DNA from: Tsukamurella ocularis
Lineage (GTDB): Bacteria; Actinomycetota; Actinomycetes; Mycobacteriales; Mycobacteriaceae
Assembly: GCF_024807615.1 (NCBI RefSeq)
Contig: NZ_JANUCJ010000002.1
Coordinates: 744,001 to 808,000 of the forward strand
Direction: 5' to 3'
DNA: 64,000 nt
This document shows, in pieces, positions 44,430-52,776 of this stretch. Each line of letters starts with the position of its first letter. Position 1 is the stretch's first letter. A program made the translations under genes and the position numbers. The notes beneath the pieces are model-generated. The model saw nothing but the letters and a program-made list of their open reading frames with translations. It was not told where the DNA came from and ran no database searches.

Positions 44430-45950
44430 CTATCCGAGGAGGGCGTCGACGAAGGCCGCCGGCTCGAACGGCGCGAGGTCGTCGGCGCCCTCGCCGAGGC
44501 CGACGAGCTTCACCGGCACGCCGAGCTCGTGCTGCACGGCGTAGACGATGCCGCCCTTGGCGGTGCCGTCGAGCTTGGTGAGGACGACGCCGGTGATGTC
44601 CACGACCTCGGCGAAGACCTTCGCCTGCGCGAGGCCGTTCTGGCCGATGGTGGCGTCCAGGACCAGCAGCACCTCGTCGACCTTGGCCTTCTTCTCGACG
44701 ACACGCTTGACCTTGTCCAGCTCGTCCATGAGGCCGGTCTTGGTGTGCAGGCGGCCGGCGGTGTCGATGAGCACTACATCGACGCCCTCCTCGGTGCCGC
44801 GCGCCACCGCGTCGAAGGCAACGGCGGCCGGGTCGGCGCCCTCCTTGCCTCGCACCACCTCCGCGCCCACGCGCTCGCCCCAGGTCTGCAGCTGATCCGC
44901 CGCGGCGGCACGGAAGGTGTCGGCGGCGCCGAGCAGTACGCGCCGGCCGTCGGCCACGAGCACCCGGGCCAGCTTGCCCGTGGTGGTGGTCTTGCCGGTG
45001 CCGTTCACGCCCACTACCAGCAGCACCGACGGTGCGCCGGCGTGCGGCAGGGCCTTGATGCTGCGGTCGTACTCGGGGTGCAGCTCCTCGATCAGCACCT
45101 GGCGCAGCAGCGCGCGCGCCTCGGCGGCGTTGGCGACGCCCTGTGTCGCAATGCGGTCCCGCAGCTTCTCGACCACGGCCATCGTCGTGGGGGTGCCGAG
45201 GTCCGCGAGGAGCAGCGTGTCCTCGATCTCCTCCCACGACTCCTCGTCGAGGTCGCCCGCGCCGAGGAGTCCGAGCAGCGATGCGCCGACCGTCGACTGC
45301 GAGCGCGCGAGCCGGCCCTTGAGCCGGTCGAGGCGGCCCTCCGTCGGGGCGATCTCGTCCAGCTTCGGGGCCGACGGTGCCGCCACGGGCGCCTCGTCCT
45401 CGGCGGGCGCCGCCGGAGCGACCGGTTCCGCCGGTGCGACGGGCGCGGCGGGCGCGATCGTCTCCGCAGGTGCGTCGGCGGGAGTGTCGGCCTCGGCGGG
45501 CGCCTCGGGCGCGGCCTCCGGCGCCTCGTCCTCGATGCGCTCGATCTCGGTCGGCGCGGACGGCGCGACGTTCGCGATGCCGGGGTCGATGTCCTCAGCC
45601 TCGGCGAGGCGCGCGTCGGTCTGCGCCTGCGCCGCTTCGGCGGCCTCCTGCTCGCGTGACTCCTGCAGGTCCTTGAGGGAGATATGAGGTGCCGCCTCGG
45701 ACACCGTTTTCGGGGCAGTCGGGGCCTTCGGCACCAGCGGCACCGGCTCGGCCTCGCGCGTGCCCTCACTGAAGGTGAAACCACCGCCGGCCTTGTACCC
45801 GCCCGACTTGTCGAGGCTCTTGGGCTCGGCCGTCTCCTCCTTGAGCGAGACGCGCCGACGCTTGTTGAGGTAGAGGCCGGTCGCCAGCGCCGCCAGAACG
45901 ACGAGGACGGCGACGACGGCGACGATGATGGCGATGGCCGAAGTACTCAC
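44430..45950 (-). CDS. ftsY: Signal recognition particle receptor FtsY
   Basis: A 506-residue SRP receptor GTPase. It has an N-terminal membrane helix ([21 protein letters not shown]) and a roughly 160-residue acidic, Ala/Pro/Glu-rich A region, as in other actinobacteria. The NG domain carries Walker [32 protein letters not shown] and [13 protein letters not shown] at 45950 is the start. In M. tuberculosis smc lies directly upstream; here an unrelated operon begins on the other strand 193 bp away. Confidence 0.96.
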
Positions 45951-46143: not shown

Positions 46144-46740
46144 ATGCGCACCACCTTCTCCCGCCGCGCCCTCGGCACCGCCCTGGCAGTGACGGCCGCA
46201 GCGGCGGTCACCGCCGTCGCTACTCCCGCGGCGAACGCCGACACGCTCACGGGCACCTTCTCGATCGATTCCGGTTCGTACTTCCGGATGATCCTGCCGA
46301 GCGGCACCGCGTCCGGCCCGTTCCTGGCGAATGGCAATTCGACCAACTCGGACAAGACCATCACGCCACTGTCCGGGTCCCTGACCTCCGGCTCCTACCA
46401 GGGGCAGGTCACCGCGGCGCGCACCTTCTTCGGCTCCGACTTCGTGACCTCGACGAAGGCGACCGACCCGCAGACCGGGTCTGCCACCGCCGTCCCGACC
46501 ATCACGCGCAACGGCTCGTCGCTGTCCGGCGACCTCTCGGCGTTCGGTGTCGCCTGGAACGGCCAGGTCTTCAACCAGGGCGCCCCGAAGCCCGGCGGAG
46601 GCCTCCCCGGTAAGACCAGCCGGGTGACCGGCACGATCAACGGCTCCAGCTACTCGATCACGTGGACCAGCCAGATCGTCGGCGGGCCGTTCAACAACTT
46701 CACCGGCCTGTGGCATCTCACCGGTACGTACAGCAAGTAG
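46144..46740 (+). CDS. Secreted protein, first gene of novel ABC operon
   Basis: A 198-residue exported protein. The signal peptide (MRTTFSRRALGTALAVTAAA) has a twin-arginine-like FSRRAL and a cleavage site after ANA at residue 32. The mature part, rich in Gly, Ser, Thr and aromatic residues, looks all-beta and has no cysteine. It shares clear blocks with the lipoprotein at 47705: SYFRM/TYFKM, ASGPF/ADGPF, VFNQGAPKP/EFNQGAPKP and GGPFNNFTGLWHL/GGPFNDFTGVWHL. I recognise no described family. It begins a run of five overlapping genes. A ligand-binding envelope protein is a reasonable guess only. Confidence 0.8.
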   Translation: MRTTFSRRALGTALAVTAAAAVTAVATPAANADTLTGTFSIDSGSYFRMILPSGTASGPFLANGNSTNSDKTITPLSGSLTSGSYQGQVTAARTFFGSDFVTSTKATDPQTGSATAVPTITRNGSSLSGDLSAFGVAWNGQVFNQGAPKPGGGLPGKTSRVTGTINGSSYSITWTSQIVGGPFNNFTGLWHLTGTYSK

Positions 46741-47708
46741 CGGCACCCGGCGCGGCGGCGCTGCTCGGGGGCGTCCCCCGGCTGCGCGCCGTCGCACCCC
46801 CTCGCACCGCGGCGGTACCGACGGCCCGACGGTGGCCGGCCTGGTTCCTGCTGATCGCGGGCATCGCTCTCGCGCTCGGCTCCGTCGCCGGCGGCCTCCC
46901 CACCACGACGGCGGGCGCAACCAAGATGCTCGACGCCTTCGCACCGCACCTGACCGAAGAGTCCCTCGCCCGACTCGACGGGGACGTGGAGGCGATCGCC
47001 CGGTTCGGCGCGGCCACCCGCGCGGAGGCCGCGGCCGGGCGGCTCGCGGCGGCCCCACGGACCGTCGGGTACGCGAACCGGTCGGCGGACGTCGAGTCGA
47101 ACGCGCGGGAGTTGCTCGCGTCGGCGCGGGCGGCGAAGCCCGACGTGGACGCGCTCGCCCGGATCCGCGGCCTGGGCACACTCCCCCAGCTGCTCCTGCT
47201 GATCGGGATCGTGCTGGCCGTCGTGGGAGCCGTCCTGCTCCGCGCCCGGGCCGCCCCGCCACGCCGGTGGGCGACCGCCGCCGCGACGCTCTGCGCGGTG
47301 GCGCTGGTGGTCCACCCGTTCGCCTCCGGCCTCGTGGACGGTGCGCCGTCCGCGGGCCGAGTGGTCGACCGGTTCGCGCCGATCATGACCGAGCAGCAGG
47401 TGGTGCGCCTGCAGCACGACTTCCTCGCGCTGGTCGGCGCGGTCGGCGAGATCGACCGCGGCACGACCGTCCGCCGCACCCCCGAGATCCGTGCCTTCAC
47501 CGCCTCCTGGCAGACGGTGTCCTCTGATCTCGCCTCACTCACCGGCGCGATCAACGACAACCTCCCCGACTACCGGCGGCTGGCCTCCACCAACGCCACC
47601 CTGCCGGTCCCCGGCGGCACCTTCGCGGCCCTGCCCTGGGCGGAGCTCGCCCTGGGCCTCGCCGTCGGGGGCGCCGTGCTCGGGACCCGACGAAAGGCTC
47701 TGCCGTGA
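46662..47708 (+). CDS. Four-helix membrane protein with duplicated ectodomain
   Basis: Coding is clear from about 46760 to 47708: four hydrophobic helices (WFLLIAGIALALGSV, LLLLIGIVLAVVGAVLL, ATAAATLCAVALVV, LALGLAVGGAVLG) flank two extracytoplasmic helical domains. The domains are a duplication: MLDAFAPHLTEESLARL matches VVDRFAPIMTEQQVVRL. The start is a problem: the only canonical in-frame codon is GTG 46662, inside the preceding gene (79-bp overlap) and without a ribosome-binding site; after the preceding stop there is only CTG. The stop overlaps the lipoprotein start (GTGA). I recognise no family. Confidence 0.75.
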   Translation: MDQPDRRRAVQQLHRPVASHRYVQQVAAPGAAALLGGVPRLRAVAPPRTAAVPTARRWPAWFLLIAGIALALGSVAGGLPTTTAGATKMLDAFAPHLTEESLARLDGDVEAIARFGAATRAEAAAGRLAAAPRTVGYANRSADVESNARELLASARAAKPDVDALARIRGLGTLPQLLLLIGIVLAVVGAVLLRARAAPPRRWATAAATLCAVALVVHPFASGLVDGAPSAGRVVDRFAPIMTEQQVVRLQHDFLALVGAVGEIDRGTTVRRTPEIRAFTASWQTVSSDLASLTGAINDNLPDYRRLASTNATLPVPGGTFAALPWAELALGLAVGGAVLGTRRKALP

Positions 47709-48565
47709 TCCCCCGCTCCACCATTCGCCCGCGAGCGCGCCGGCCGCTAGCGCTCGCCCTGGTCGCCCTGGCAGCGGCGGCATCCGCCGCCTGTAGCACG
47801 GCAGCGCCGGCGCAGCCGGAAGCCCCCGAGCAACTCGTCGGGCTGTTCCGGTTCACGCCGGGCGGTTTCGCCGACGGGAAGCCGACGGGCACGTACTTCA
47901 AGATGGCGATCGTCGGCGGCACCGCCGACGGGCCCTTCGTCAACAACGCCAACTCGCCGATCGACGAGGGCCGCGTCACCGCTCTGAAGCCGGGCACCGC
48001 GGGCGGGCTCCGCACCGGCGCCTACCAATCCGAGGCGAAACCCGCTTTCCATAACGGTGATTCGCTGTCCCGCTCGGTGATCACGCCGACGAAATTCTTC
48101 GACGTGCTCTTCGGCATCTCCACGAACGCCGTCGATCCACAGACCCGCGCCCCACTGCCCGCGCCGTCGGTCACGCGCACCGGAACGAAGCTCACCGCGA
48201 ACGTCTCCGCCTGGGCCGCCTCGTGGAACAACCAGGAGTTCAACCAGGGCGCGCCGAAGCCAGTGCCCCGCACCGACGCCGCCGCGGCCGGACAAGAGCA
48301 GGTCGGGAAGGCCTGGGACGTCGTCTCGCAGCGTTGGCTCGCGCAGCCCGCGGCGGCGAAGGCCGACGGCCCCACCGCCAACGGCACATTCGACCCCGCG
48401 ACGCGGCGCTTCACCCTCGACTGGACCAGCCACATCCAGGGCGGCCCGTTCAACGACTTCACCGGCGTCTGGCACCTGGAGGGCGTCTTCGAGCCCGGGC
48501 CACCGCCCACTGCCGCCGGCACCTCCACCGCTCCCCGTTCCTCCGCACCGAAGAAGGCACCATGA
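47705..48565 (+). CDS. Lipoprotein paralogous to the first operon protein
   Basis: A 286-residue exported lipoprotein: basic N-region, hydrophobic core and lipobox ASAAC, giving a lipid-anchored Cys near residue 30. The mature domain is paralogous to the secreted protein at 46144 (shared blocks GTYFKM, GTADGPF, DPQT, SWNNQEFNQGAPKP, GGPFNDFTGVWHLEG). It differs by an insertion of about 45 residues after the QGAPKP block and a Pro/Thr-rich C-terminus. GTG at 47705 overlaps the upstream stop, and its stop overlaps the next start (ATGA). It may be the membrane-held partner of the free form. Confidence 0.8.
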   Translation: MIPRSTIRPRARRPLALALVALAAAASAACSTAAPAQPEAPEQLVGLFRFTPGGFADGKPTGTYFKMAIVGGTADGPFVNNANSPIDEGRVTALKPGTAGGLRTGAYQSEAKPAFHNGDSLSRSVITPTKFFDVLFGISTNAVDPQTRAPLPAPSVTRTGTKLTANVSAWAASWNNQEFNQGAPKPVPRTDAAAAGQEQVGKAWDVVSQRWLAQPAAAKADGPTANGTFDPATRRFTLDWTSHIQGGPFNDFTGVWHLEGVFEPGPPPTAAGTSTAPRSSAPKKAP

Positions 48566-49425
48566 CCCGGATCCCGCCCGCGTTCGCCCGCACCGCCGTC
48601 GCCGCCGCACTCGCGGTGACCGTCCCCGTCGCGGGTACTGCGATGGCGGCCCCGACGCCGAAGCCCGTCCCTTCGCCGAGCAGCTCCCCCGCATCAACGA
48701 GCGCGGCCGCGAAGCCCTCGGGACCGGCGACACCCTCGGCGGCCAAGCCTTCCGGTGCGGCGACCCCGTCCGGCTCGGCGACGACCTCGGGGTCCGTATC
48801 GACCGTTGTGCCGGGCGTTAACCCCGCTGATATCCAGTGCCCGCTCGGCTGGCCCAAGCCGCGGGAGAAGGGCGGCCTCGCTTCGCTGATCCTGCTGGCG
48901 CCCGCGGCCGGCGCGTTCACCGACGAAGCCTTCGCCGCGGGACAGGCCTACGACCCGATCCTCAGCCTGTTCGGCCCCTTCCTCGCCGCGATCAAGCCCG
49001 TGATCGAGCAATCGCAGCCCACGCTCGCTGGTCCGGTCGGCGCGCTCAATGCCGCGGAGCAGGCGGTCTACGACGCGATCAAGCCCCTGTATGCGCAGTA
49101 CCGCCCCAAGGTGATCGAGGCGCTCACCAAGGCCGGCGACGACCTCGCACCCGCACTCCAGGAGCTCGCCGCCACGCCCGCGGCCGCGTGCCTCGTGGCA
49201 TGGGAGGACCAGGTGCTCACCGGCCTACAGACCGGGAAGTGGTCGCCCATCGCCACCGGCGGGCTGGCGGCGCTCGGCGAGCTCGCGGCGAGCGGCAAGG
49301 GCGGCGGCGCGGCGGCCGCCAAGACGGGTACGCCCGCGTCCACGAAGCCCGCAGCCACGAAGACCGGGCCCAAGCCGGGTTCCGCTAAGCCCGCGGGAAC
49401 GGCCGTGGCCGCGACGCCGCGGTGA
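48562..49425 (+). CDS. Secreted helical protein with low-complexity flanks
   Basis: A 287-residue exported protein. The signal peptide ends AMA-AP near residue 30. A Ser/Pro/Ala/Lys/Thr-rich linker runs to about residue 85. A helical domain of about 150 residues follows, opening CPLGWPKP and containing a second Cys (AACLVAW), so one disulfide is possible. A Lys/Ala/Pro/Thr-rich tail ends the chain, of a type that may interact with the cell wall. It overlaps both neighbours by 4 bp. No family is recognised. Confidence 0.75.
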   Translation: MTRIPPAFARTAVAAALAVTVPVAGTAMAAPTPKPVPSPSSSPASTSAAAKPSGPATPSAAKPSGAATPSGSATTSGSVSTVVPGVNPADIQCPLGWPKPREKGGLASLILLAPAAGAFTDEAFAAGQAYDPILSLFGPFLAAIKPVIEQSQPTLAGPVGALNAAEQAVYDAIKPLYAQYRPKVIEALTKAGDDLAPALQELAATPAAACLVAWEDQVLTGLQTGKWSPIATGGLAALGELAASGKGGGAAAAKTGTPASTKPAATKTGPKPGSAKPAGTAVAATPR

Positions 49426-50909
49426 TCGAACTCGTTGGGGTCACGGTCCGCTACGGCGGAGTCGTGGCAGTGGAGGACGTGACCTTCACGGCACCGTCGG
49501 GCGAGGTCACGGGGTTGATCGGGCCCAACGGTGCCGGGAAGTCCACCACGCTACGGCTCATCGCCGGGCTGGAGCGGCCCTCGTCGGGCACGGTCACGAT
49601 CGACGGTCGGCGGTACGGCGATCTTCCCAACCCCGGCGCGGCGATCGGCGTCCTGCTCGATGCGGAGTGGGTCGCGCCGTCGCGGACGGCCCGCGAACAC
49701 CTGCGGTGGATGGCGGCCGCGATCGGCCTGCCCGACGCGTGCGTCGCCGCTGCGCTCGACCTCGTCGGCCTCGAGTTGGTAGCCGACCGGCCCGTCGGAG
49801 GCTTCTCGCTGGGGATGCGCCAGCGGCTCGCGATCGCGGGGGCCGTCCTCGGGGATCCGCCGGTGATCGTGCTCGATGAGCCGGTGAACGGCCTCGACCC
49901 CGAGGCGATCGCCTGGATCCGCCGCACCCTCCGCGCGCTCGCCGACGAGGGACGCACCGTTCTGCTGTCCTCGCATCTCCTCAGCGAGCTGGAGCAGACG
50001 GCCGACCGTATCGTCGCCCTGCACGAGGGGCGCGTGGTCGCGGATGCGCCGCTGGCCGAGCTGGTCGAACCCGCGCCGCCGGGCCGGTCCGGTTTGGAGG
50101 CACTGTACTTCTCACTCACGGGCGATGAATCGTCCCGGGGCCCCACCCCCGCGCCGCCCGCCACCCCACCGCGGGGCGTCGCGCGACGGTCCGTGACCGC
50201 GGAGGCGAGGAAGGCCCTGACCTCCCGCGGCTTCCGCGCCGCGCTCGGCGGCGCGACGGCGGTCGCCCTAGCGGTGGCCGTCGTCGTCGGCGTCTTCGCG
50301 CCGGTCTTCCACGACGCCACGGTGACCACCGCGGGATACGGCCTCGGGCTGGTGGGCGGCGCGCTCATCGCCGTGGCCGGGGCGCTGCTCATCGGCCTCG
50401 ACCGGGACGACGGAACACTTGCGCTCAGCCGCATCCTGATCCCGCGGCCATTGGTCGGGTACGCCTCGAAGGCCGTGGTCGCGGCCATCGGCGGTGCAGG
50501 GGCGGGCCTCGCCGGTGCGGCGTCGGCCGTCGTGGTCGCCGCGGTCACCGGGGTGTCCTCCCCCGCCACCGAAGTCGTGCACCTACTAGCCACCGCGCCG
50601 ATCGCCAGCGCCCTGCTCGCCCTGTCGGGCCTGGCAGTAGGTCACCTGACTTCGTCCACCACCGCGGCGGTCGGCATCATCTTGGGCTGGTGGTTCCTCG
50701 TGGAGGCGATCGCGGTCCCGGCCCTCCCGTTCGGGCGTTCGCTCGCGGCGTGGCTCCCCGCCACCAGCTCGCAGCTCGCGACGATCGGTGTGCCCGCGAA
50801 CACCGCGACCTGGTCGCCGTGGGTCTCGCTGACGATCCTCGCCGCGTGGACCGCCGTCGCCTCCGCAGTAGCTCTCGCCGCGACGCGACGCTGGCCCCGG
50901 ACCGCCTGA
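49422..50909 (+). CDS. ABC transporter, ATPase fused to membrane domain
   Basis: A 495-residue protein. Residues 1 to about 225 are an ABC ATPase with Walker A GPNGAGKSTT, signature FSLGMRQRLAIA, Walker B VIVLDEPVNGLD and switch His in LLSSHLLSE, closest in pattern to ABC-2 (drug or lipid export) ATPases. A short Pro-rich linker leads to six hydrophobic helices (about 265-490), as in ABC-2 permeases. GTG at 49422 overlaps the upstream stop (GTGA). It closes the operon that begins at 46144. The substrate is unknown; the ABC-2 type favours export. Confidence 0.85.
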   Translation: MIELVGVTVRYGGVVAVEDVTFTAPSGEVTGLIGPNGAGKSTTLRLIAGLERPSSGTVTIDGRRYGDLPNPGAAIGVLLDAEWVAPSRTAREHLRWMAAAIGLPDACVAAALDLVGLELVADRPVGGFSLGMRQRLAIAGAVLGDPPVIVLDEPVNGLDPEAIAWIRRTLRALADEGRTVLLSSHLLSELEQTADRIVALHEGRVVADAPLAELVEPAPPGRSGLEALYFSLTGDESSRGPTPAPPATPPRGVARRSVTAEARKALTSRGFRAALGGATAVALAVAVVVGVFAPVFHDATVTTAGYGLGLVGGALIAVAGALLIGLDRDDGTLALSRILIPRPLVGYASKAVVAAIGGAGAGLAGAASAVVVAAVTGVSSPATEVVHLLATAPIASALLALSGLAVGHLTSSTTAAVGIILGWWFLVEAIAVPALPFGRSLAAWLPATSSQLATIGVPANTATWSPWVSLTILAAWTAVASAVALAATRRWPRTA

Positions 50910-50921
50910 TAGCGTCACGCT

Positions 50922-51015
50922 CGAGTCGGACATAGGGAACCCGGTGAGAGTCCGGGACTGGCGCGCAACGGTGTGAGGCGACTTCGTCGCCTCGAGTCCG
51001 ATACCGGCCGACTCG
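50922..51015 (+). ncRNA. Cobalamin riboswitch
   Basis: The closing stem P1 is a perfect 8-bp pair (CGAGTCGG 50922-50929 with CCGACTCG 51008-51015). Inside are the hallmark elements of the AdoCbl/B12 class: GGGAA-CCCGGTGAGAGTCCGGG (near 50935-50956), GGCGCGCAACGGTG, which corresponds to the B12-box region, and GAGTCCGATACCGGCC near the 3' end. It starts 13 bp after the ABC gene and ends 55 bp before the binding-protein gene at 51071. B12 should repress that gene and the one after it. Confidence 0.88.
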
Positions 51016-51070
51016 CAGCTGTCCACCACCGCCCCCGCGCACGGAGCGGCCGACGAATCGAGTCCGACCC

Positions 51071-52051
51071 ATGCGGCCCAGCGCCCTCGCTTCCACCCTC
51101 GTCCTGCCCGTCGCGGCGGGACTCCTCGCCGGCTGCGGCTCGGCGCCGTCGACACCGACGGCCGCGAGCCCGTCCGCCCGGTTCCCCGTCAGCGTCACCA
51201 CCTGCGATTTCACCACGGACGTGAAGGCCGAGCCGCGTCGGATCGTGACAATGAACCAGGGCGCTACCGAGGTGGCGCTGGCGCTCGGCGTGGCCGACCG
51301 CATGGTGGGCACCGCCTACCTCGACGACGCGGTCGCCCCGCGTTTCCAAGCCGAGTACGCGAAGATCCCCGTCCTCGCCGCGAAGTACCCGACGCAGGAG
51401 AAGATGCTCTCGGTCCGGCCCGACTTGGTCTACGGCTCGTACAACTCGGCGTTCAGCGAGAAGAACGCCGGCGACCGCGCGAAGCTGCAGGGCCAGGGCA
51501 TCGCCACCCTCCTGGCCCCGGCGGGCTGCGCGAAGAAGCCGGAACGCGCGACGTGGGACCTGATCTGGGACGAACTGACGGCAGCGGGGAAGGCGTTCGG
51601 CACCGAGGATCAGGCCGCGGAGGTGATCGCGGCGCAGAAGGCCGAGCTCGGCAGTGCCGCCCTCAAGGGCGCCGCGCGCGGCCAGCGCATCTTCTGGTGG
51701 GACTACGGCGCGCAATCCGGCCTCAACGTGGGCGCCGGCAAGGGCACCCCGCAGCTGGTGATCGAGTCCGTAGGGGGCGTGAACGTCTTCGCCCACTTGC
51801 CCGGCAATTGGGCCGAGGTCTCGCTGGAGAACGTGGTCGGCACGAACCCCGACGTCATCGTCGTGGCCGACACCGTCGGACATCCCGCGCAGGAGCGGAT
51901 CGACCAGGCACGCAAGGACCCCGCTCTGAGCCAGCTGCGCGCCGTCCGGGAGAACCGGTTCGTCGTGATCCCGTTCTCGGAGACCACGTCCGGCGTCCGC
52001 CTGCTCGACGGTGCGCGACGCATCGCCGAGGGGATCCGGGCGCTGCCGTGA
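51071..52051 (+). CDS. Periplasmic-binding lipoprotein of BtuF type under B12 riboswitch
   Basis: A 326-residue substrate-binding lipoprotein (lipobox LLAGC, Cys about residue 19) of the Fe3+-siderophore/B12 binding class (Peripla_BP_2). Family marks are RRIVTMNQGATEVALALGV, the MLSVRPDLVYG segment and NPDVIVVAD. Position directly after the cobalamin riboswitch makes a corrinoid or a precursor the likely ligand. No permease or ATPase gene follows, which is unusual for an importer operon. ATG at 51071. Confidence 0.87.
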   Translation: MRPSALASTLVLPVAAGLLAGCGSAPSTPTAASPSARFPVSVTTCDFTTDVKAEPRRIVTMNQGATEVALALGVADRMVGTAYLDDAVAPRFQAEYAKIPVLAAKYPTQEKMLSVRPDLVYGSYNSAFSEKNAGDRAKLQGQGIATLLAPAGCAKKPERATWDLIWDELTAAGKAFGTEDQAAEVIAAQKAELGSAALKGAARGQRIFWWDYGAQSGLNVGAGKGTPQLVIESVGGVNVFAHLPGNWAEVSLENVVGTNPDVIVVADTVGHPAQERIDQARKDPALSQLRAVRENRFVVIPFSETTSGVRLLDGARRIAEGIRALP

Positions 52052-52776
52052 CGGCGATCCTCGTGGGGATGTCGGCCGGCGTCGACCCCGACGCGCTGAC
52101 CGGGCTGGCCCGCGCCGCCGACGCCGAGGTCGCCTTCCTGCAGGTCCACGATCCCGCGCTGATCGACGTACTCACCTCGGTCGCCGACCGCGGCGCCTCC
52201 GACGTCCTGCTCATCGGCGCGGGCTGGGCGCAGTCCGGACCGAAGCGCTCGTGGTTGCGCCGCGTGGCGGCGCACTGGCTCCGAAGCTACGACGGTGCCC
52301 CCACCCTCCGGCTCGCGCCGCAGCTGCTGGCGGCACCCGACGAGGAGCTGCTGGCCGCCGCGATCGCTGCCGGCGGGACACCGATGGCCGACGATGCCGC
52401 GCCGCTGCACTCGCCCGCGTGGGAGAAGGTGCCGCGGCACCGGCACCAGGTTCTCGTGTGCCGCGGTCCGCGCTGTTCGGCGTTGGGTGCCTCGGCGCTG
52501 ACCTCGGCGTTCGGCGACGAACTGCGGCGCGCGGGCCTGGGCGACGACGATGCGCTGGTCACCGTCACCGGCTGCCAATTCCCCTGCAACCACGCCCCGG
52601 TCGTCACGGTGCAACCGGACGACGCCTGGTACGGGCGGGTCACCGTCGACGAGGTACCCGGGCTCGTCGAGGCGCACCTGCTGAACGAGGAGCGGGCCGC
52701 CCACCTCCTGCTCCCCCGGGAGCGCTCCGCCGCCCGCGCGTCCGCGGAATATTCGGACCGCGGTCCGCGGTTGTAG
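52048..52776 (+). CDS. CbiX-like / [2Fe-2S] thioredoxin-like ferredoxin fusion
   Basis: A 242-residue protein. Residues 1 to about 120 resemble a single sirohydrochlorin chelatase (CbiX-like) half: ILVGMSAGVDPDALTGL and DVLLIGAGWAQSG, though the usual early His is not clear. Residues about 130-225 are a [2Fe-2S] thioredoxin-like ferredoxin with CRGPRC (C-x4-C) and GCQFPCN (C-x3-C). GTG at 52048 overlaps the upstream stop, so it is also under the B12 riboswitch. A role in cobalt insertion or corrinoid handling coupled to redox is inference. Confidence 0.82.
   Translation: MTAILVGMSAGVDPDALTGLARAADAEVAFLQVHDPALIDVLTSVADRGASDVLLIGAGWAQSGPKRSWLRRVAAHWLRSYDGAPTLRLAPQLLAAPDEELLAAAIAAGGTPMADDAAPLHSPAWEKVPRHRHQVLVCRGPRCSALGASALTSAFGDELRRAGLGDDDALVTVTGCQFPCNHAPVVTVQPDDAWYGRVTVDEVPGLVEAHLLNEERAAHLLLPRERSAARASAEYSDRGPRL

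Follow-up and report, generated by a model that had tools for sequence, protein, structure and literature searches.

A conserved four-gene envelope module of Mycobacteriales in Tsukamurella ocularis, joined in one branch by an ABC transporter

The window analyzed here is a stretch of 64,000 nucleotides from Tsukamurella ocularis (NCBI RefSeq assembly GCF_024807615.1, contig NZ_JANUCJ010000002.1, positions 744,001 to 808,000 of the forward strand), in which five consecutive genes, g1 to g5 (Table 1), encode two copies of one beta-barrel domain (g1 and g3), a membrane protein (g2), a linker-rich secreted protein (g4), and an ATP-binding cassette (ABC) transporter (g5). It is well supported that g1–g4 belong together as an envelope module conserved in Mycobacteriales; both the barrel and g2 also have relatives in other Actinomycetota. 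The ABC transporter is an add-on that marks one branch and is not the center of the module. An earlier reading made from the nucleotide sequence alone (the sequence-only reading) described an envelope system in which an exporter acts together with one domain present in two versions, free and lipid-anchored. The single system and the free and anchored pair stand, but the exporter is not central, because in most of the loci g1–g4 are not directly followed by a g5-type ABC. By the tests made no component other than g5 falls in a named family, and we regard the module as new in kind. Literature searches, judged by their listings, showed no report of this gene cluster, which is weak evidence because unnamed genes offer nothing to search by.

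The named scan comprises 64 loci, 45 of which have the order barrel, membrane protein, barrel, g4: 34 are plain, nine have an ABC gene next, and two (L083 and L115) have one member in two reading frames. The remaining loci are seven that break off no more than 41 bases from the first barrel, one (L107) with a barrel alone, and 11 outside Mycobacteriales. The quartet g1-g2-g3-g4 is in order in 45 of the 46 Mycobacteriales loci that reach far enough, a proportion that describes barrel-bearing clusters and not genomes at large, because the loci were chosen by barrel motifs. The genera with the conserved unit are Nocardia, Williamsia, Gordonia, Antrihabitans, Aldersonia, Mycobacteroides, Jongsikchunia, and Tsukamurella. 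Co-occurrence of all five genes, which the sequence-only reading named as support for one system, is seen for the quartet but not for g5: a g5-type ABC is the next gene in nine of the 64 loci. Among 351 genomes of the family, profile matches are found to the barrel in 38, to g2 in 44, and to g4 in 37, with all three in 37 genomes. One genome (G465) has the barrel only, and seven (G011, G287, G442, G461, G473, G483, and G543) have a divergent g2-like protein alone, the match in G287 being doubtful (E = 9.6e-4). The genes are therefore not rarely found together, the partners co-occurring where the barrel occurs, and chance neighborhood is rejected on the basis of conserved order, co-occurrence, and the empty sites described below. 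Phylum-wide, the barrel was found in three of 396 genomes, that of the window included, with a first-look filter that may miss divergent members.

One of the 37 genomes, G197, retains only pieces of g2, a barrel, and g4 in order within ∼930 bases (G197:C1:846294-847224), as if decaying together. The seven contigs that break off so soon after the first barrel are all from Nocardia (L069, L082, L084, L094, L095, L096, and L109), perhaps owing to an assembly-breaking repeat or a strong structure between g1 and g2.

In Tsukamurella the module is present or absent as a whole. The g1 gene is found in 11 of 16 genomes, and in the 10 other than that of the window it is followed by g2 to g5 with order and strand unchanged; in G006 a frameshift interrupts g5. 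The five genomes without g1 have no barrel, no g4, and only distant relatives of g5 (≤57% identity), and one of them (G011) carries a divergent g2-like gene elsewhere in the genome (E = 1.4e-25). The empty site is seen in G012 and in G009 (83% complete), where ftsY lies directly beside the gene downstream of the module that we take to be BtuF-like. The module and ftsY are also borne by T. tyrosinosolvens 'plasmid 19' (L168, NZ_LR134461.1). A mobile-element origin was rejected: because it carries ftsY, 'plasmid 19' is probably a mislabelled chromosomal contig.

The ABC label was given only to ATPases close to the quartet that match the g5 profile at E ≤ 1e-50, and apart from the loci in which such a gene is next it is found a short distance away in L111 and L125. 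A quick-method tree of 48 g2 rows places all seven rows from ABC-bearing clusters (three from Tsukamurella, one from Jongsikchunia, two from Gordonia, and one from a metagenome-assembled genome of Acidimicrobiaceae) on one side of a branch with a Shimodaira–Hasegawa-like approximate likelihood ratio (SH-aLRT) support of 99. Members of this branch outside Tsukamurella have ATPase and permease as separate genes, and the single-chain fusion is found in Tsukamurella. L125, whose short contig contains a barrel, g4, and an opposite-strand ABC pair but no g2, was left out of this tree. Weaker opposite-strand ABC genes lie near the cluster in L122 and in L110, the latter (E = 8e-37) accompanied by a permease gene and adjoining a DUF4395-type gene, and weaker ABC genes lie farther away in L071, L088, and L092; the rows from these five loci were counted as having no ABC.

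Alone among the five, g5 is above a Pfam cut-off (ABC_tran, PF00005, E = 8e-30), and it has the ATPase motifs Walker A GPNGAGKS, signature SLGMRQ, Walker B VIVLDEP, and H SSH, followed by a hydrophobic C-terminal half. Its earlier description as an ATPase-permease fusion stands. As to the ABC-2 look also noted, no ABC2 membrane profile matches the permease half, all 10 Pfam families listed at E up to 1 being of ATPase type. The closest NCBIfam rows among the matches listed (25 of 191, all below cut-offs) are lantibiotic-protection and drug-export ATPases. Thus g5 resembles the DrrA, NodI, and lantibiotic-protection ABC exporters in its ATPase motifs and nearest listed NCBIfam models, and differs from them in being a single-chain fusion in Tsukamurella with a permease half that has no Pfam match.

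For the other four proteins, which the sequence-only reading did not recognize, no Pfam or NCBIfam cut-off is reached, with weak sub-cut-off rows or none. The proposed paralogy of the first and third proteins is confirmed by 35% identity between g1 and g3 (E = 2e-34), the greater length of g3 being mainly due to an insert of 28 columns; g3 has a lipobox-like cysteine. The predicted model of g1 is all-beta, with a mean predicted local distance difference test score (pLDDT) of 90, and suggests a soluble-type beta-barrel with generic structural matches only. The strict lipobox pattern is found in none of 53 first-position homologs (in which the L123 row shows a protein end, not a start) versus 28 of 45 second-position rows, and by eye a cysteine follows a hydrophobic stretch in 44 of those 45, the last being a piece of a broken first copy. 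Several motifs of g1 are very strongly conserved across genera, and the barrel motifs include FNQGAPKP and GGPFNxFTGxWHLxG. A Pfam scan of 48 barrel members at E up to 0.5 gave nine families, with no YceI, lipocalin, HtaA, or HmuY among them; the barrel profile found no solved-structure relative by sequence, and g1 has no match at E ≤ 0.001 in a viral structure library. YceI and other polyisoprenoid-binding barrels (TT1927b, E. coli YceI), with which we presume BcnA and BcnB to be grouped, differ from g1 and g3 in their motifs, show 5–11% identity in the rows concerned, and are not matched by a YceI profile. A tree of 48 barrel domains unites the 21 first-position copies in a single, fully supported clade, and the 11 second-position copies together with one Acidimicrobiaceae copy in one supported group, although the bootstrap is not fully settled. 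Because first- and second-position copies group separately, the split into free and anchored forms predates the genera. More than one barrel stretch is found within a single protein in two outgroup proteins (L112 and L116).

The description of g2 as a four-helix membrane protein with a duplicated ectodomain also holds. Alignment of one half with the other by hhalign gives a probability of 99.9 (E = 1e-32), which drops to 33% when the second half is reversed. The model, of mean pLDDT 91 and starting at residue 2, has four long helices in positions that we assign as transmembrane (41–59, 154–177, 185–204, and 303–326), and in it the cytoplasmic part consists of short loops and an N-terminal tail, ∼40 residues long and modeled with low confidence. 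Structure searches with folded g1 and g2 did not place either in a known, unrelated family. The best Foldseek rows for g2 are Tweety homologs, lipid-transfer proteins of eukaryotes, a weak match (E = 0.007, root mean square deviation 9–10) without sequence support; the sensor domains of PilJ, TorS, and McpZ are also among its helical matches. The order of transmembrane segment, ectodomain helices, and two transmembrane segments, then again helices and a transmembrane segment, resembles TM2–TM5 plus the ectodomain of Tweety proteins (TTYH1-3) as described in PMC8361169. On the other hand, g2 has four transmembrane segments versus five and no sequence-profile match, and is not assigned as a member. 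The same source describes an E3–E4 flap held by a disulfide in TTYH (PMC8361169), which is not the case in g2: the window protein has one cysteine, and two of 41 rows have at least two. Tweety and prominin rows are absent from a Pfam scan of 10 g2 proteins at E up to 10, within the HMMER filters, and from the matches listed (25 of 33 families) for 41 g2 members; the profile of g2 alignment A6 finds no TTYH chain among PDB chains at E up to 10. A search for solved structures by sequence gave nine rows, the best at E = 1.2 and none convincing. The Pfam family SPW is not reached by the g2 of the window (12 bits versus a cut-off of 31.5), and weak SPW rows occur in 19 of 41 members (best E = 4.9e-6; highest bits seen 25.0, in L113).

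In g4, cysteines C93 and C210 are invariant in the 30-row alignment A7, all 30 rows having at least two cysteines, and the linkers are long, of low complexity, and rich in Pro, Ala, Ser, and Gly. No Pfam row was found for 30 members at E up to 0.01.

The near-gapless arrangement of the five genes, with GTGA, ATGA, and GTGA overlaps at 47705, 48562, and 49422, is read in the sequence as first described. The start of g2 is most likely the GTG at 46710, inside g1, as a matching GTG is found in 10 other Tsukamurella loci and RefSeq starts g2 there in T. tyrosinosolvens; g1 and g2 would then overlap by 31 bases, so that every junction would be an overlap. Ratios of nonsynonymous to synonymous substitution (dN/dS) of 0.10–0.27 against genomes of three other species give a pattern of purifying selection on all five genes. 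In one RefSeq record (T. tyrosinosolvens) g1–g4 are all annotated as hypothetical.

Table 1. Coordinates of the five genes and of flanking features in the window.
Feature	Coordinates	Strand	Description
g1	46144-46740	+	Secreted free copy of the beta-barrel domain, 198 amino acids; signal peptide with AxA site (by eye)
g2	46710-47708	+	Membrane protein, 332 amino acids, GTG start; two repeats of transmembrane segment / three-helix ectodomain / transmembrane segment
g3	47705-48565	+	Lipid-anchored copy of the barrel domain, 286 amino acids
g4	48562-49425	+	Secreted; Pro/Ser/Ala/Lys-rich linkers flanking a conserved two-cysteine core
g5	49422-50909	+	Fusion protein of 495 amino acids: ABC ATPase plus a hydrophobic, permease-like half
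Cobalamin riboswitch	50911-51026	+	Rfam RF00174, 34.3 bits versus gathering 31.5; outside the module
ftsY	44430-45950	minus	Upstream flank; name from the RefSeq annotation in a T. tyrosinosolvens relative

Outside Mycobacteriales a DUF4395-type membrane protein is found in eight of the 11 loci, by motif count and with a Pfam test in L117 only; its gene adjoins the barrel gene in L110, L111, L113, L114, L118, and L125 and the g2 gene in L117 and L119. The g2 part forms the C-terminal portion of a larger protein, ∼870–910 residues long, in Conexibacter and Leucobacter. Downstream of its gene come a barrel gene, an ExbB-like gene, and one of DUF2149 type, and RCC1-repeat surface proteins are encoded in the vicinity (Pfam tests of RCC1, ExbB, and DUF2149 were made in L117). 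At its N-terminal end the L117 fusion has a weak match of squalene-cyclase type just under the cut-off (E = 8e-6), and L120 shares the motif. These loci (L117 3288-10525, L119 2264-9153, and L120 6123-15821), in which a toroid-like part is fused to the g2 part, look like an undescribed energized surface system. Elsewhere, g2-like proteins without a barrel have, judged by eye, P450-like and further oxidative genes as neighbors in L159 and L162, from large genomes of genus code g80; a sterol-carrier domain, though suspected, was not found in a Pfam scan of the genes beside g2-like proteins. A divergent g2-like protein of 523 amino acids is encoded near Mce genes (MlaD, Mce4_CUP1) in G543 (L167 5492-12941). 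This is a point in common with the Mce lipid importers, from which the module differs in that the products of g1–g5 contain no MlaD domain (Pfam, E up to 1).

As to the role of the module, we lean toward transfer of a lipid-like molecule. We tentatively propose that its cargo, lipid-like or hydrophobic in some other way, passes between the plasma membrane's outer face and the space beyond it, periplasmic or in the outer envelope, which we regard as quite possible though short of probable. Where present, g5 would place the molecule in the outer leaflet; g2, with a four-helix core and ectodomain like those of Tweety, would receive it in a cavity formed between the two repeats; g3, held at the membrane by its lipid, would pick up the molecule or dock the carrier; the free barrel g1 would carry it away, or run in the reverse direction for uptake; and g4, with one likely disulfide and flexible linkers, would be a tethering or docking partner. 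An outward-facing g2, an anchored and a free barrel, and a linker-rich partner suit handover between a membrane surface and a mobile carrier, and an optional ABC suits active supply to the outer leaflet in one branch. A lipid-like cargo is favored because of the Tweety-like g2, the nearest natural shapes of the barrel, and the g2-like protein near Mce genes. A point of caution is the strong conservation of polar residues, as the cargo may be polar, or alternatively these residues may form docking sites.

The g4 linkers raise a different possibility, since such linkers are frequent in cell-wall-spanning proteins: g4 and g1 could be structural envelope proteins tethered by g2 and g3, with g5 exporting an unrelated peptide or acting as a self-protection pump. 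The lantibiotic-protection and drug-export ATPases listed as best NCBIfam rows for g5 and the multiple barrel stretches per protein in L112 and L116 are consistent with such placement or display of proteins or polymers, but g1 has neither a lipobox nor a visible anchor, and the very strong conservation of several of its motifs across genera points to specific binding more than to a passive structural role. We consider this explanation unlikely.

A more specific form of the lipid-transfer proposal is that lipid-transfer proteins of Tweety/prominin type have a bacterial lineage of their own, founded by g2, with g1 and g3 as dedicated free and anchored barrel carriers, driven by the ABC in one branch. 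TTYH2 is reported to work with a soluble lipid carrier (PMC12328215), and Tweety is proposed to be homologous to prominin (PMC11405016). Stated in full, this version is distinctly doubtful.

The flanking sequence downstream bears on whether the cargo might be a tetrapyrrole. The cobalamin riboswitch is probably the start of the next, separate transcription unit (region 50911-52776), containing a lipoprotein gene (51071-52051), the one we take to be BtuF-like, and a gene (52048-52776) presumably CbiX- or sirohydrochlorin-chelatase-like. In G007 neither of these genes is found between ftsY and the next oxidoreductase gene. Membership of the module in this cobalamin unit was rejected, because in G012 and G009 the BtuF-like gene is beside ftsY without the module; that it stays in place there also indicates adjacency, not linkage, and so counts against barrels that are free and anchored hemophores or cobamide binders handing heme or corrinoid to g2. 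The main support for tetrapyrrole capture is that the iron-regulated hmu heme operon of Bacteroidetes ends with ExbB and DUF2149 (PMC10434189), but their motifs are found in three of the 64 loci only. Moreover, the absence of HtaA and HmuY from the nine Pfam families found for 48 barrel members at E up to 0.5 speaks against it, and HtaA rows rank no higher than generic barrels. The heme-binding HtaA, HtaB, and ChtA of Corynebacterium differ accordingly from g1 and g3, which have no HtaA profile match, and g5 is unlike a heme importer, its nearest NCBIfam rows among the matches listed being exporters. We consider tetrapyrrole capture quite unlikely.

That g2 is a receptor, its helical ectodomains sensing a ligand delivered by the barrels, is suggested by the PilJ, TorS, and McpZ matches and by a protein-kinase-like gene just upstream in L075 (by eye), but is improbable, given that g2 in the model has no cytoplasmic domain beyond its tail and short loops and that no kinase or regulator recurs beside the quartet in 13 loci inspected. 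A defense system was rejected: PADLOC gives no match for g1–g4, and the nine models matched by g5 are taken as generic ATPase likeness.

To our knowledge, how lipids and other hydrophobic molecules move across the space between the two membranes of mycolic-acid bacteria is an open question, and a role in such movement can be tested directly on a module that combines a duplicated membrane protein with two carriers, one free and one anchored. If g2 does found a lineage of Tweety/prominin-like proteins, the module would be a bacterial counterpart of the TTYH2-apolipoprotein pair, and if the Tweety resemblance is real, a protein class that PMC12328215 describes as eukaryotic would gain a bacterial model.
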